From the NCBI GenBank assembly GCA_030680995.1, contig JAUXUM010000185.1:1-43703 (forward strand): a DNA stretch of 43,703 bases, in the 5' to 3' direction. Positions 37,720 through 41,854 of the stretch are shown in pieces (the stretch's first letter is position 1; every line of letters starts with the position of its first letter). Both the position numbers and the translations under genes were made by a program. This stretch comes from Devosia sp. (GTDB lineage Bacteria; Pseudomonadota; Alphaproteobacteria; Rhizobiales; Devosiaceae). Under the pieces are notes generated by a model. It saw only the letters and a program-made list of their open reading frames with translations, did not search any database and was not told where the DNA came from.

Positions 37720-38709
37720 TTAGTACCGTTGCGGGCCGGCCGGCTTGTTGCCGAGGATGGTCTCGATCTTTCCTACTACCTCGGCCGTGAGCTTGCCCTT
37801 GTGCTGGAGCGCGGCAAGGTTGTCGGTCAACTGGGTGGGGCGCGAGGCCCCAAGGATCACCGTCGAGACGTGCGGATTGGCGAGGCACCAGAGCAACGCC
37901 AGATGCGTGAGCGAGATGCCGATCCCGTCGGCGAGTGACTGCAGCTCGCGGGTCTTGCGCAGCTTCTCGAGGCCAAGCTCGGTGTTGAGGCTGTCGCGAA
38001 GCCACTCATAGCCGGGCAGGCTCATCCGGCTGTCCGCCGGGATGCCCTGGCTGTATTTGCCGGTGAGGATGCCCGAGGCGAGCGGCGACCAGATCGTGGT
38101 GCCGAGTCCGAGGAGGTCGTAGACCGGCAAGTAGTCGGACTCGACCTTCTGCCGCTCGAACATGTTGTACTGCGGCTGTTCCATGGTCGGCGGGGTAAGT
38201 CCGCGCGAACGGGCGACGCCCCAGGCTTCGGTCAATTGCTGGGCGGTCCATTCGGACGTGCCCCAGTAGAGGATCTTGCCCTGCGTCACGAGGTTATGCA
38301 TCGCCCACACGGTTTCCTCGATCGGGGTGTCGACGTCGGGGCGATGGCAGAAATAGAGGTCGAGATAGTCGACCTTGAGGCGCTTGAGCGCGGCGTGGCA
38401 GGCCTCGGTCACGTGCTTGCGGCTGAGCCCTTTCTGGTTGGGCTTGTCGCCGCCCCAGAACACCTTGGATGAAACCAGGAAGGTGTCGCGCGGCCATTTG
38501 AGCGCGCTCAGCACCTCGCCCATCACCGTCTCGGCGGCGCCCCGTTCATAACCTTCGGCATTGTCGAAGAAGTTGATGCCGTTGTCATAGGCCAGCGCCA
38601 TCAGCTCGGTCGCATCCTTCACCTGCGCCTGTTTGGCGAAGGTCACCCAGGCGCCGAAGGAGAATTCGCTGACTAGGAGGCCCGATTTGCCGAGGCGCCG
38701 ATATTCCAT
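37720..38709 (-). CDS. Aldo/keto reductase (Kv-beta-like)
   Basis: 329 residues from ATG 38709. The start MEYRRLGKSGLLVSEFSFGAWVTF and the length fit the subgroup related to potassium-channel beta subunits. The tetrad is Asp49, Tyr54 (FFDNAEGYERG), Lys82 (VSSKVFW) and His122 (FCHRPDVDTPIEET). Also WGTSEWTAQQ, YNMFERQKVE, SPLASGILTGKY and VILGASRPTQLTDNL, which hold NADP. It reduces aldehydes or ketones; the substrate is unknown. It interrupts the otherwise one-directional metK-trmB/rimP-nusA region on the other strand. Confidence 0.9.
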   Translation of the reverse strand: MEYRRLGKSGLLVSEFSFGAWVTFAKQAQVKDATELMALAYDNGINFFDNAEGYERGAAETVMGEVLSALKWPRDTFLVSSKVFWGGDKPNQKGLSRKHVTEACHAALKRLKVDYLDLYFCHRPDVDTPIEETVWAMHNLVTQGKILYWGTSEWTAQQLTEAWGVARSRGLTPPTMEQPQYNMFERQKVESDYLPVYDLLGLGTTIWSPLASGILTGKYSQGIPADSRMSLPGYEWLRDSLNTELGLEKLRKTRELQSLADGIGISLTHLALLWCLANPHVSTVILGASRPTQLTDNLAALQHKGKLTAEVVGKIETILGNKPAGPQRY

Positions 38710-38776: not shown

Positions 38777-38795
38777 AGGGCATTCGTCAGGTCGT

Positions 38796-38854
38796 CCCCC
38801 ACTCCGGCGCTACGCTCCGACCCTGCCCGCAAGGGGGAGAGAGACGCAAGAACC
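38796..38854 (+). repeat. Second copy of the dispersed CCCxxCCCxCAAGGGGGAG element
   Basis: It aligns along its whole length with 5373-5432: CCCCCACTCCGGCGCT, CGACCCTGCCCGCAAGGGGG and GAGACGCAAGAACC, with a one-base gap and a handful of differences. It ends nine bases before the -35 box of the rimP promoter. Confidence 0.7.
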
Positions 38855-38862
38855 TCGCTCCC

Positions 38863-38891
38863 TTGCACGCAAACCCCATCGGCGCTATATA
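38863..38891 (+). promoter_or_regulatory. Promoter of rimP-nusA-ylxR-infB
   Basis: TTGCAC (38863-38868), exactly 17 bases, TATATA (38886-38891), in a GC-rich context. Transcription would start near 38898, giving a leader of about 95 bases that contains the hairpin at 38919. Confidence 0.6.
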
Positions 38892-38918
38892 AGTCTCAAC
38901 ATCATTGGCTCTCTTGGA

Positions 38919-38950
38919 GAGTGGGTGCCGCCTGGCCCCGCTCTTTTTTG
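38919..38950 (+). terminator. Intrinsic terminator/attenuator in the rimP leader
   Basis: GAGTGGG (38919-38925) pairs with CCCGCTC (38937-38943, one G-U), extended inside by GCC/GGC, and is followed at once by six Ts (38944-38949). An alternative stem CTCTC/GAGAG (38909-38921) shares its 5' arm and would disrupt it. This is the layout of an attenuator. A conserved rimP leader RNA is known from Rhizobiales, and this may be that element; I cannot align it here. Confidence 0.6.
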
Positions 38951-38992
38951 TTACCCCGGAGCGGCCGCGACGGCAGAAGGAACTGGACTGGC

Positions 38993-39619
38993 GTGGGCGA
39001 AAAATTCGACCTCACCGAACGACGCTACATCAAGGAAACCGGCCTCGAGGCGCGGATCGCCGCCATCGTTGAGCCGGTCGCCAATGATCTGGGCTATGCG
39101 CTGGTCCGCGTGAAGGTCACGCCGGAGAACGGCTGCACGCTGCAGATCATGGCCGAGGATGAAAACGGGCGCTTTGCCATCGCCGATTGCGAGAAGCTGT
39201 CCAAGGATCTCTCGCCGGTGCTCGATGTCGAGGATCCGATCGAGCGCGAATACCATCTCGAAGTCTCTTCACCGGGGATCGACCGGCCGCTGGTCCGCGC
39301 CCGCGACTTTGCGGCCTATGTCGGCCATGAAGCGAAGGTGGAACTCTCCGACCTGATCGACGGACGCAAGCGCTTCCGCGGCACCATCGCCGCCGTCAAC
39401 GACGAAACAGTGACCATCCGGCTGCCCGACGCGCCCAAGGACACCGATCCCAATCACCGCCTGCCGCTCGCCATGCTGGCCGAGGCCAAGCTGGTAATGA
39501 CCGATGCGCTCCTCAATATGGCGCGCGGGCACCAGGCAGAGCACCCCATCGATGACGATGCGGATATCGAAACCATCGAGCTCAGTTCAGACGACGAGAC
39601 TTCCGAGGAGATTGAATAA
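38993..39619 (+). CDS. rimP: Ribosome maturation factor RimP
   Basis: 208 residues from GTG 38993, with AGAAGG at 38975-38980; the frame is open further upstream but runs through the leader hairpin. Motifs: GLEARIAAIVEPVANDLGYALVRVKV, CEKLSKDLSPVLDVEDPI and YHLEVSSPGIDRPL, then a C-terminal SH3-like domain. It assists assembly of the 30S subunit. The acidic tail (DDDADIETIELSSDDETSEE) is longer than in E. coli. nusA begins on the base after the stop. Confidence 0.94.
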   Translation: MGEKFDLTERRYIKETGLEARIAAIVEPVANDLGYALVRVKVTPENGCTLQIMAEDENGRFAIADCEKLSKDLSPVLDVEDPIEREYHLEVSSPGIDRPLVRARDFAAYVGHEAKVELSDLIDGRKRFRGTIAAVNDETVTIRLPDAPKDTDPNHRLPLAMLAEAKLVMTDALLNMARGHQAEHPIDDDADIETIELSSDDETSEEIE

Positions 39620-41215
39620 ATGGCCGTTAGCGCGAACCGACTGGAACTGCTGCAGATCGCCGATGCGGTGGCACGCGAGAAGTCGATCGACCGCATGATC
39701 GTCATCGAATCCATGCAGGATGCCATCGAGAAGGCGGCCAAGACCCGCTACGGCGCCGAGACCAATGTGCGCGCCGAGATCAATCCGCGCACCGGCGAGC
39801 TGCGCCTGTGGCGGCTGCTCGAAGTTGTCGAAAACGTCGAGGAATTCGGCCGGCAGATTTCCCTGCCGGACGCCAAGGCCCGCAACGAGGCCGCCAAGCT
39901 CGGCGATTTCGTCACCGAGCCGCTGCCGCCCATCGAATTCGGCCGCATCGCCGCCCAGTCGGCCAAGCAGGTCATCGTGCAGAAGGTGCGCGATGCCGAA
40001 CGCGACCGCATGTACGAGGAATACGTCAACCGCATCGGCGAGATCGTCAACGGCACCGTCAAGCGTGTCGAGTACGGCAATGTCATCGTCGATCTGGGCC
40101 GCGGCGAAGCCATCATCCGGCGTGACGAACTGATCCCGCGCGAGACCTACCGCTATGGCGACCGGGTCCGCGCCTATATCTACGATGTCCGCCGCGAGCA
40201 GCGCGGGCCGCAGATCTTCCTGTCGCGCACCCATCCTCAGTTCATGGCCAAGCTGTTCATGCAGGAGGTGCCCGAGATCTACGACGGCATCATCACCATC
40301 CGTTCGATTGCCCGCGATCCGGGCAGCCGCGCCAAGATCGCCGTCACCTCCTCCGATTCCTCGATCGACCCGGTGGGCGCCTGCGTCGGTATGCGCGGCA
40401 GCCGCGTACAGGCGGTGGTCGGCGAACTCCAGGGCGAAAAGATCGACATCATCCCCTGGACCGACAACATTGCCGACCTGGTGGTTTCGGCATTGCAGCC
40501 GGCCGATGTGGCCAAGGTCGTGCTCGATGAGCAGGCCGAGCGCATCGAGGTGGTGGTGCCCGACGAACAGCTTTCGCTTGCCATCGGCCGCCGCGGCCAG
40601 AATGTGCGGCTCGCCAGCCAGCTCATCGGCTGGGATATCGACATCCTGACCGAGCAGGAAGAGTCCGAGCGCCGCCAGAAGGAATTCACCGAGCGCTCGA
40701 CTTTGTTCATGCAGGCCCTTGACGTCGACGAGATGGTTGCCCAGCTACTGGCTTCGGAAGGCTTTTCCTCGGTCGAGGAGTTGGCCTATATCGATGTCTC
40801 GGAGATCGCCTCCATCCAGGGCTTCGACGATGAGACGGCGACCGAAATCCAGAACCGCGCCGTCGAATATCTGGCCGCCATCCAGCGCGCCCATGACGAG
40901 GAGCGCAAGCAGCTCGGGGTCGAGGACGAGCTTTACGAGATCGCCGGCCTCAGTGCGGCCATGCTGGTGGCGCTGGGCAAGGAGGGGATCAAGACGGTCG
41001 AGGATTTCGCCGGCTGTGCCAGCGACGATCTGGTCGGCTGGGTCGAGCGCAAGGACAGCGAGGTCAAGCGCTTCGAAGGGACATTCAAGGATTTCCCGGT
41101 GAGCCGGGAGGAAGCCGAAGAAATGATCCTGCAGGCCCGTCTGAAGGCGGGCTGGATCACCGAAGCCGATCTCGCCGGGCCGGCCGAGGAAGCCGCGGAA
41201 GGAGCGCCCGCCTGA
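39620..41215 (+). CDS. nusA: Transcription termination/antitermination factor NusA
   Basis: 531 residues. Domains in order: the N-terminal RNA polymerase-binding part (LELLQIADAVAREKSIDRMIVIESMQDAIEKAA), S1 (GEIVNGTVKRVEYGNVIVDLGRGEAII), two KH domains (GSRAKIAVTSSDSSIDPVGACVGMRGSRVQAVVGEL; IEVVVPDEQLSLAIGRRGQNVRLASQLIGW), and C-terminal helix-hairpin repeats (SVEELAYIDVSEIASIQGF, GIKTVEDFAG). NusA controls pausing, termination and antitermination. Its product may act on the leader of its own operon, as proposed in other bacteria. Confidence 0.97.
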   Translation: MAVSANRLELLQIADAVAREKSIDRMIVIESMQDAIEKAAKTRYGAETNVRAEINPRTGELRLWRLLEVVENVEEFGRQISLPDAKARNEAAKLGDFVTEPLPPIEFGRIAAQSAKQVIVQKVRDAERDRMYEEYVNRIGEIVNGTVKRVEYGNVIVDLGRGEAIIRRDELIPRETYRYGDRVRAYIYDVRREQRGPQIFLSRTHPQFMAKLFMQEVPEIYDGIITIRSIARDPGSRAKIAVTSSDSSIDPVGACVGMRGSRVQAVVGELQGEKIDIIPWTDNIADLVVSALQPADVAKVVLDEQAERIEVVVPDEQLSLAIGRRGQNVRLASQLIGWDIDILTEQEESERRQKEFTERSTLFMQALDVDEMVAQLLASEGFSSVEELAYIDVSEIASIQGFDDETATEIQNRAVEYLAAIQRAHDEERKQLGVEDELYEIAGLSAAMLVALGKEGIKTVEDFAGCASDDLVGWVERKDSEVKRFEGTFKDFPVSREEAEEMILQARLKAGWITEADLAGPAEEAAEGAPA

Positions 41216-41236: not shown

Positions 41237-41854
41237 GTGTCCGACACGGAACAATTGAGCCGGCAATGCTCGCTCACCCGTGAGGTGAAGCCGGTGGCCG
41301 ATCTCATCCGCTTCGTCGTCTCACCCGATGGCGAGGTGGTGCCCGATACCGACGCCAGGGCCGAAGGCAGGGGCGTTTGGGTGACGCTGGGCTACAGGGC
41401 TGTCACGGAGGCCGTCAAGAAGAAGGCTTTCCAGAAGAGCCTCAAGGCCAATGTCGGCGTTCCCGGCGATCTCGCCGATTTGACGCGGCTACGGCTCGGG
41501 CAGCGCCTGACGCAGGCGCTGAGCATGGCGCGCAAGGCCGGGCAGATCGTCACCGGCGCGACCAAGGTCAAGGCGGCGATCGAAAGCGGCGCGGTGGTCG
41601 CCCTGCTGACGGCAACCGATGCGGCGGCCGATGGGCGGCAGAAACTGGTGGGCTCGCTCAAGGGGTTCACCATGGCCGCGAAAGAGGCCGGTTTAGGGGT
41701 GGAAGACGTGCCCCACCTCGAATTGCTCGATTCAGACCAATTGGGTTTGGCACTCGGGCTGGAAAATGTGATACATGCTGCCCTCGTCAAAGGGGCGGCA
41801 GCCGAGGCGGCGTTGAAACGGGCGCAGAGACTTGCCCGTTACATCGCCAATTGA
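41237..41854 (+). CDS. YlxR-L7Ae fusion RNA-binding protein
   Basis: 205 residues from GTG 41237. The first 85 residues are a YlxR domain (SRQCSLTREVKPVADLIRFVVSPDGEVVPD and GRGVWVTLGY). The rest is an L7Ae/L30e-like domain (LSMARKAGQIVTGATKVKAAIESGAVVALLTATDAA). Firmicutes encode these as two small proteins between nusA and infB; fused forms are usual in alphaproteobacteria. It probably binds RNA, with no defined target. Confidence 0.88.
   Translation: MSDTEQLSRQCSLTREVKPVADLIRFVVSPDGEVVPDTDARAEGRGVWVTLGYRAVTEAVKKKAFQKSLKANVGVPGDLADLTRLRLGQRLTQALSMARKAGQIVTGATKVKAAIESGAVVALLTATDAAADGRQKLVGSLKGFTMAAKEAGLGVEDVPHLELLDSDQLGLALGLENVIHAALVKGAAAEAALKRAQRLARYIAN

Follow-up and report, generated by a model that had tools for sequence, protein, structure and literature searches.

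The window (the whole 43,703-nucleotide stretch of DNA that was analysed) is one contig of a 3.1-Mb genome with 257 contigs, whose NusA has its best named relatives in Devosia (91% to Devosia sp. 67-54, among the matches listed). It carries, on the forward strand, rimP (38993..39619, with a GTG start and 208 amino acids), nusA (39620..41215; TIGR01953, 440 bits) and, as next gene of the operon, the gene of a YlxR/RnpM-type RNA-binding protein (41237..41854; NF006622, 212 bits, over the cut-off), the product of which scores 51 bits with the RnpM model, under that model's cut-off. The open frame of rimP extends 5' as far as a GTG at 38921, within the terminator hairpin described below; the RimP matches of 60 other genomes of the order start at residues 2-11 relative to the GTG at 38993, so that the longer frame is probably not the gene.

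Upstream of rimP, a -35 element (TTGCAC, 38863..38868) and a -10 element (TATATA, 38886..38891) can be read from the forward strand with a spacer of 17, and would place the transcription start near 38898. An earlier note on this DNA had called this promoter clean. The promoter pattern is kept: of 166 leaders of the order (157 distinct windows), 145 carry TTG[CA]-N18-22-TA[TC]A upstream of the terminator hairpin, where base shuffling of the segments yields 2.1 on average. 'Clean' is generous, because TTGCAC agrees with TTGACA at 3 of 6 positions. That poor match is also why a generic scan of the window did not detect the promoter; the same scan did not detect the hairpin, which falls outside its loop and stem limits. 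From the end of the promoter pattern to the U of the GUGG in the terminator stem the median distance is 34 nt in leaders of the order, so that the hairpin P1, described below, would sit at the extreme 5' end of the RNA.

Farther upstream, an aldo-keto reductase gene (window 37720-38709, reverse strand) separates the rimP leader from what we take to be a trmB-like gene. In one relative (L030) the sequence immediately 5' of the leader resembles the end of the trmB-like gene, and the reductase gene may be an insertion in the window's own lineage. Between the reductase gene and the promoter (38795-38845) lies a G+C-rich, repeat-like stretch, CCCCCACTCCGGCGCTACGCTCCGACC...CCCGCAAGGGGGAGAGAG, which to the eye looks like an interspersed palindromic element; a similar one precedes rimP in L008.

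The terminator stem, P2 (38916..38946, forward strand), reads GGAGAGUGGG-u-GCC GCCU GGC CCCGCUCUUU. Its outer arms, GGAGAGUGGG at 38916-38925 and CCCGCUCUUU at 38937-38946, form ten pairs, to which RNAfold adds the inner GCC/GGC stem, making 13. The U tract (six Ts, 38944..38949, forward strand) is partly paired into the base of P2, and the combined unit (38916-38949) ends 43 nt upstream of rimP. No obvious short reading frame, such as a leader peptide would need, is seen by eye between the promoter and the U tract. The fold energy of P2 is -20.7 kcal/mol alone and -21.0 kcal/mol with the 5' leader; alone, it has z = -4.2 and is equalled by none of 200 shuffles. The energy of the whole leader is ordinary (z = -0.4); stability alone thus says little, and comparison across genomes is decisive.

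Directly before P2, and overlapping it, lies the candidate antiterminator hairpin P1 (38908..38922, forward strand; GCUCUC paired with GAGAGU across a UUG loop). The 3' arm of P1 is the base of the P2 5' arm: the exchanged strand, GAGAG (38917..38921, forward strand), can serve only one of them at a time. Both the ten-pair hairpin with its six Ts and the stem of CTCTC (38909-38913) with GAGAG are therefore present as the earlier note had described them, the latter using the terminator's 5' arm. The window's P1 ranks among the weaker examples (-3.8 kcal/mol, equalled by 65% of shuffles). A further proposal of that note, that GCCGC in the P2 loop (38927-38931) pairs with GCGGC downstream (38961-38965), is not supported: the letters exist, but a complement of the loop 5-mer is found downstream in 57 of 163 leaders as against 45 +- 5 for shuffled sequence, a slight excess at most. 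A stronger candidate, CCGCTC with GAGCGG (38938-38943 with 38959-38964), was rejected as chance along with it: among 163 leaders, only the window's own has GAG[CT]GG 3' of the U tract, while shuffled sequence gives 5.4.

Conservation in the order was assessed on 141 leaders, comprising those of 61 genomes (the window's included) and the best 80 of more named loci found via NusA; the sample includes near-duplicates. A P2-type hairpin, with a GYGG...CCGC-like stem, is parsed in 137 of the 141 (some windows lie on a wrong GNGG, at least L003 and L099, and are counted as they came), and in each of the four unparsed leaders (L127, L133, L136 and L139) a hairpin before Ts is seen by eye. The exact P2 motif is present as a single copy in the window's genome; a scan of 41 genomes gives a single match in each of 20, and all 20 are at rimP. 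Among 172 parsed leaders of the order, TTTT follows within 9 nt 3' of the stem in 137 (a different set from the 137 parsed of 141, its equal size being coincidence). Removing four mis-parsed rows (L009, L066, L101 and L262) and two duplicates (L242, identical with L119, and L258, identical with L103) from the 172 leaves 166, which represent 157 distinct windows. The 9-nt tail has 85% identity in 125 U-tract leaders. The element also extends through the class. A RimP match was found in 129 of 152 genomes sampled across it, and 69 leaders, mostly of the better matches, were examined; a GUGGGC...GCCC(A/G)C-like stem followed by Ts is parsed in 53 of these (52 of 68 when L169, which belongs to the window's order, is excluded), and several of the 16 unparsed leaders nonetheless show such a hairpin by eye.

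Some details vary. In 105 of the order's 137 U-tract leaders, GTT or ATT stands directly 3' of the U tract. The pair after GGG/CCC (pair 5, in fixed register) is canonical in 37 of these 137, the remainder including C.A (41), U.C (28, rows that include bulged leaders) and U.U (21); it is canonical in 27 of 29 leaders that have no U run (discussed below) and in 37 of 44 leaders from other orders. This mismatch may tune the strength of the terminator. A GU/GC motif in P2, which we liken to the S15-type motif, was considered and rejected: its U-G pair is U-A in 23 of 44 other-order leaders and C-G in 6 of 137 leaders of the order.

The rimP-leader of Naville & Gautheret (2010, PMC2965389) is described by its authors as a short terminator whose stem has the form GGGc(...)gCCC, and as the most ubiquitous transcription attenuator, rimP standing at the top of the genes with predicted attenuators. 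The window's element largely fits this broader description. The published element occupies the 5' UTR of rimP-nusA(-infB), and the window's too lies 5' of rimP-nusA; where the published definition asks for G-rich and C-rich arms and a T stretch at 4-130 nt from the start, the window has GGG/CCC, six Ts and 43 nt. It differs from the published motif in having a bulged U and then a G-C pair in place of c/g after GGG/CCC; in fixed register, C-G occupies that position in 15 of the order's 137 U-tract leaders but in 36 of 44 other-order leaders. The paper describes the general rimP-leader as having no visible antiterminator, with the exception of the tandem form found in several Gammaproteobacteria; in the window's order, by contrast, a hairpin overlaps the terminator arm. 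The stem conservation led the same authors to propose a specific protein, probably NusA.

Identification with the known rimP leader, which the earlier note had suggested together with a covariance-model search, thus holds if the term is taken as broadly as Naville & Gautheret (2010) use it, and does not hold for the Rfam family: RF01770 (gathering cut-off 47 bits) has no match in the window, none even at E <= 10, while the E. coli leader, run as positive control, scores 102 bits. The E. coli element heads the same operon and its second stem, GGGCUUUAGGCCC with its Us, resembles P2; it differs in having two tandem stems with a U run after each. No Rfam 15 model reaches its gathering score in the window or in 20 sampled related loci. 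Hits to L20_leader (E 0.053) and ar35 (E 3.3) score far under gathering and depend mostly on the terminator stem, and two further weak hits are located outside leaders; all were set aside.

Control of this operon has been analysed in other bacteria. The E. coli rimP gene is preceded by two terminators, and mutants impaired in NusA termination have higher levels of the operon's transcripts (PMC6511841); the CspA-type cold antitermination that had been proposed for the operon is disputed in the same paper. The metY-nusA-infB transcript of E. coli is cleaved by RNase III (PMC5371410). In B. subtilis, NusA is autoregulated through NusA-stimulated termination in its own leader (PMC12288461). The window's element shares with that system an intrinsic terminator in the leader of the nusA operon; the NusA-dependence that is found there is only predicted here. 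No description of an alphaproteobacterial rimP-leader element of this design was found in the literature consulted, as covered by titles and the beginnings of abstracts, nor in main-text passages of PMC2873474, PMC7717549 and PMC7815308.

The evidence that P1 is more than a fortuitous hairpin comes from two kinds of comparison. In the first, sequence upstream of the P2 5' arm is shuffled. Of 137 leaders of the order, 106 have at least four of the five arm bases paired upstream, against 31.5% of shuffles on average; taken leader by leader, 55 of 137 beat their own shuffles at 5%. The mean probability that the base of the P2 5' arm is paired upstream is 0.69 in the order (0.43 with shuffled upstream sequence), and exceeds 0.5 in 115 of 137 leaders; taken singly, 42 of the 137 fall below 5%. 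In other orders it is 0.37 as against 0.36 when shuffled (above 0.5 in 20 of 52). With one leader taken from each other family of the window's order (20 parsed of 24) the values are 0.55 and 0.49 (above 0.5 in 14 of 20), a slight excess over shuffles. Two mutually exclusive stems with one common arm, both conserved, are found in the order, and the signal is weak in the one-per-family sample. Shuffling is a blunt control for P1, because it preserves the CUCUC composition.

The second comparison is a swap test, in which the 5' half of one species is joined to the 3' half of another; it is alignment-free, and was chosen in place of pair counts on a MAFFT alignment because MAFFT misplaces the P1 5' arms. 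In the order, native sequences fold at -7.11 kcal/mol and swapped ones at -5.39 (cut 12; n=59, windows sharing less than 70% identity), a difference reached in 0 of 5000 permutations at each of six cuts; with n=44 windows below 60% identity the count is 0 to 12 of 5000. Native halves also do better in other orders (-8.94 and -7.33 kcal/mol; n=51; 0 to 1 of 5000). In these the number of paired arm bases is 1.86 native and 1.30 swapped (reached in 11 of 5000 permutations at cut 12, the effect weakening to 541 of 5000 by cut 15), implying that arm overlap is perhaps not special to the window's order. The swap difference at P1 is -1.73 in the order and -1.61 in other orders, to be set against -0.90 to +0.33 at seven other offsets used as controls. 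Three of the seven order controls are nominally below 5% (offsets -36, -78 and -106, with 3, 0 and 81 of 2000), reaching one third to one half of the P1 effect; one other-order control, again at offset -36, is nominally below 5%.

By eye, P1 pairing is kept between groups while its sequence changes, from UCUUgAUC/GAUgAAGA in rhizobia and UCUUgGUC/GACgAAGA in Mesorhizobium to UCUCuGCGAU/AUCGUGAGA in Aureimonas, CUCAAA/UUUGAG in Roseibium and UCUCaAACGA/UCGUUaGAGA in Kaistia. The arm-pairing and swap tests back the mutually exclusive terminator/antiterminator pair that the earlier note had proposed, in the form of the CTCTC/GAGAG-type stem. As judged from sequence comparison, a hairpin directly before the terminator is class-wide and overlap of the arms is clearest in the window's order; the overlapping P1 in that order, supported by the swap test, is among the new findings.

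Two alternative folds can be written for the leader. State A consists of P1 and a short P2 (GUGGG...CCCGC); in state B, P2 is long, with (R)AGA paired to UCUU at the start of the U tract. Both states can be written for 103 of the 137 leaders, and B is there the more stable by 3.4 +- 1.9 kcal/mol (between -1.0 and 6.8; these are model energies that omit the coaxial stacking term); in the window itself, the long P2 is favoured by about 6 kcal/mol. In state A the short stem ends about four bases from the U tract, and by the general rules for terminators a stem ending that far short should terminate poorly.

Transcription of the leader would then proceed as follows. RNA polymerase would start about 10 nt before P1, which would fold first and sequester (R)AGAG. 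With the emergence of GUGGG...CCC(R)C, P1 could persist beside the short P2, allowing read-through; alternatively, the (R)AGAG bases would shift to UCUU, forming the long P2 and terminating transcription about 50 nt into the transcript. Since the states lie only about 3 kcal/mol apart, the outcome could be set by a factor that acts on the hairpins or on RNA polymerase during a pause. NusA, as product of the same operon, would be the likeliest such factor, and its action would constitute negative feedback.

The anatomy of the element, its uniqueness and conservation, the matching of native P1 halves and the small model-energy gap are direct observations, and the leader element is almost certainly real. 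Premature termination in the window's organism is likely, and P1 probably acts as an antiterminator. NusA as the effector is argued by analogy and is plausible, a little short of probable. Taking these together, we incline, with some reserve, to the view that the element is an alphaproteobacterial rimP-leader, a transcription attenuator heading the rimP-nusA operon and subject to NusA feedback. Overall, it is an order-wide elaboration of a known attenuator, with unexpected natural variants that lack a U run. NusA being broadly conserved and often essential, control of its level is of general interest.

The variants without a U run are one reason for qualifying the attenuator reading. TTTT within 9 nt after the stem is absent from 35 of the 172 parsed leaders, 29 of them distinct after six rows are removed. 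These 29 comprise 21 from the Kaistia family (which has 27 rimP matches in 28 genomes, 21 of the 27 U-less), six from the family of genome G048 (eight genomes, six of the eight U-less), and those of Roseibium suaedae and Hansschlegelia beijingensis. In L267 a longer stem ends before CTTTT, which makes this leader doubtful and leaves 28. All 29 have canonical P2 pairs 0 to 3, a core that the search pattern required. The lower P2 stem is broken: pair -3 is canonical in 2 of 29, compared with 134 of 137 U-tract leaders. Mean pairwise identity over the 29 leaders is 75% in P1, which was not part of the search pattern; it falls to 66% in the promoter segment, to 63% still farther upstream and to 59-60% on the downstream side, shuffled sequence giving 55%. 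In the swap test native P1 halves fold better here also (n=11; 75, 9 and 12 of 5000 at three cuts). The double hairpin thus seems to matter even where there is no U tract, with two families supplying nearly all of the evidence. That 28 U-less leaders keep both hairpins is not what a pure intrinsic attenuator would lead one to expect, and the element probably does more than terminate transcription intrinsically.

A tentative, rather doubtful proposal is that what is conserved is not the terminator but the pair of tandem hairpins, which would bind a protein or cause pausing at the 5' end of the NusA operon and be selected also in U-less lineages, termination having been added by the four-base strand exchange. 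If so, a single order would use the same RNA scaffold for both intrinsic and U-tract-free autogenous control. The order's definable antiterminator and the natural variants that keep the hairpins without a U run make hairpin recognition testable separately from termination.

The strongest competitor of the attenuator reading holds that P1 and the short P2 serve chiefly to bind a factor or to direct processing (NusA, RimP, the YlxR-type protein, an RNase or some other factor) and that the U tract is optional, control being exerted through protein binding, Rho-dependent termination, pausing or mRNA stability and not by intrinsic termination alone. It draws on the 28 U-less leaders, with their retained P2 core, broken lower stem, P1 identity above that of the flanks and native P1 halves that outfold swapped ones, and on the argument for a specific protein from stem conservation (PMC2965389). 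We nevertheless consider it unlikely, since the U tract is retained in most leaders (137 of 172) with its 9-nt tail at 85% identity, since TTT is kept in 9 of the 29 U-less leaders, so that weak termination may occur there, and since these leaders come almost wholly from two families, in which shared descent or inertia could explain part of the retention.

Plain stable hairpins with no regulation, acting as a leaky terminator that trims expression constitutively, would be in keeping with the preference for the long P2 in nearly all two-state leaders (mean 3.4 kcal/mol, coaxial stacking omitted); this is very unlikely in view of the better match of native P1 halves than of halves from other species, and of the upstream pairing of the shared arm in most leaders. 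The compactness of a transcription unit with its own promoter and terminator, and the 379 mRNA-leader transcripts of a Sinorhizobium survey (PMC2873474), might suggest that the terminated RNA of about 50 nt is a trans-acting sRNA, or that P2 terminates an independent sRNA before rimP; but all 20 exact P2 matches are at rimP, P1 varies in sequence while its pairing stays, and the GGG/CCC core is common to the rimP leaders of other groups, which makes this highly improbable. Equally hard to credit is a boxA-type control, in which NusB-NusE (S10) would bind CGCUCUUU, the terminator 3' arm, and antiterminate: the arm and U tract do spell GCUCUUU, the first seven bases of the order's boxA-like rRNA-leader site, and E. 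coli suhB is under the control of the Nus complex via boxA (PMC5725501), but the second half, GACA, is missing, GCUCUUU is broken in L119, L125, L131 and L123, any GC-rich stem with GCUC before a U run would fit, and the authors of PMC5725501, working on gammaproteobacteria, found no boxA upstream of Nus-factor genes other than suhB, nusE and, via ribH, nusB.

With GCTCTTTGACATTGTG, the rRNA-leader site of the same genome, the P2 arm and U tract share just GCTCTTT, and the boxA reading was rejected. The naming of that rRNA-leader site as boxA is our own reading. Of 26 loci (L143-L168), 20 have a boxA-like GCTCTTTGA no more than 330 nt upstream of where 16S begins; 16S genes were located by a primer-site pattern, which matched in 23 of 61 genomes, the Rfam 16S model having found none. 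In the window's genome the boxA-like rRNA-leader site reads AGCTCTTTGACATTGTG.
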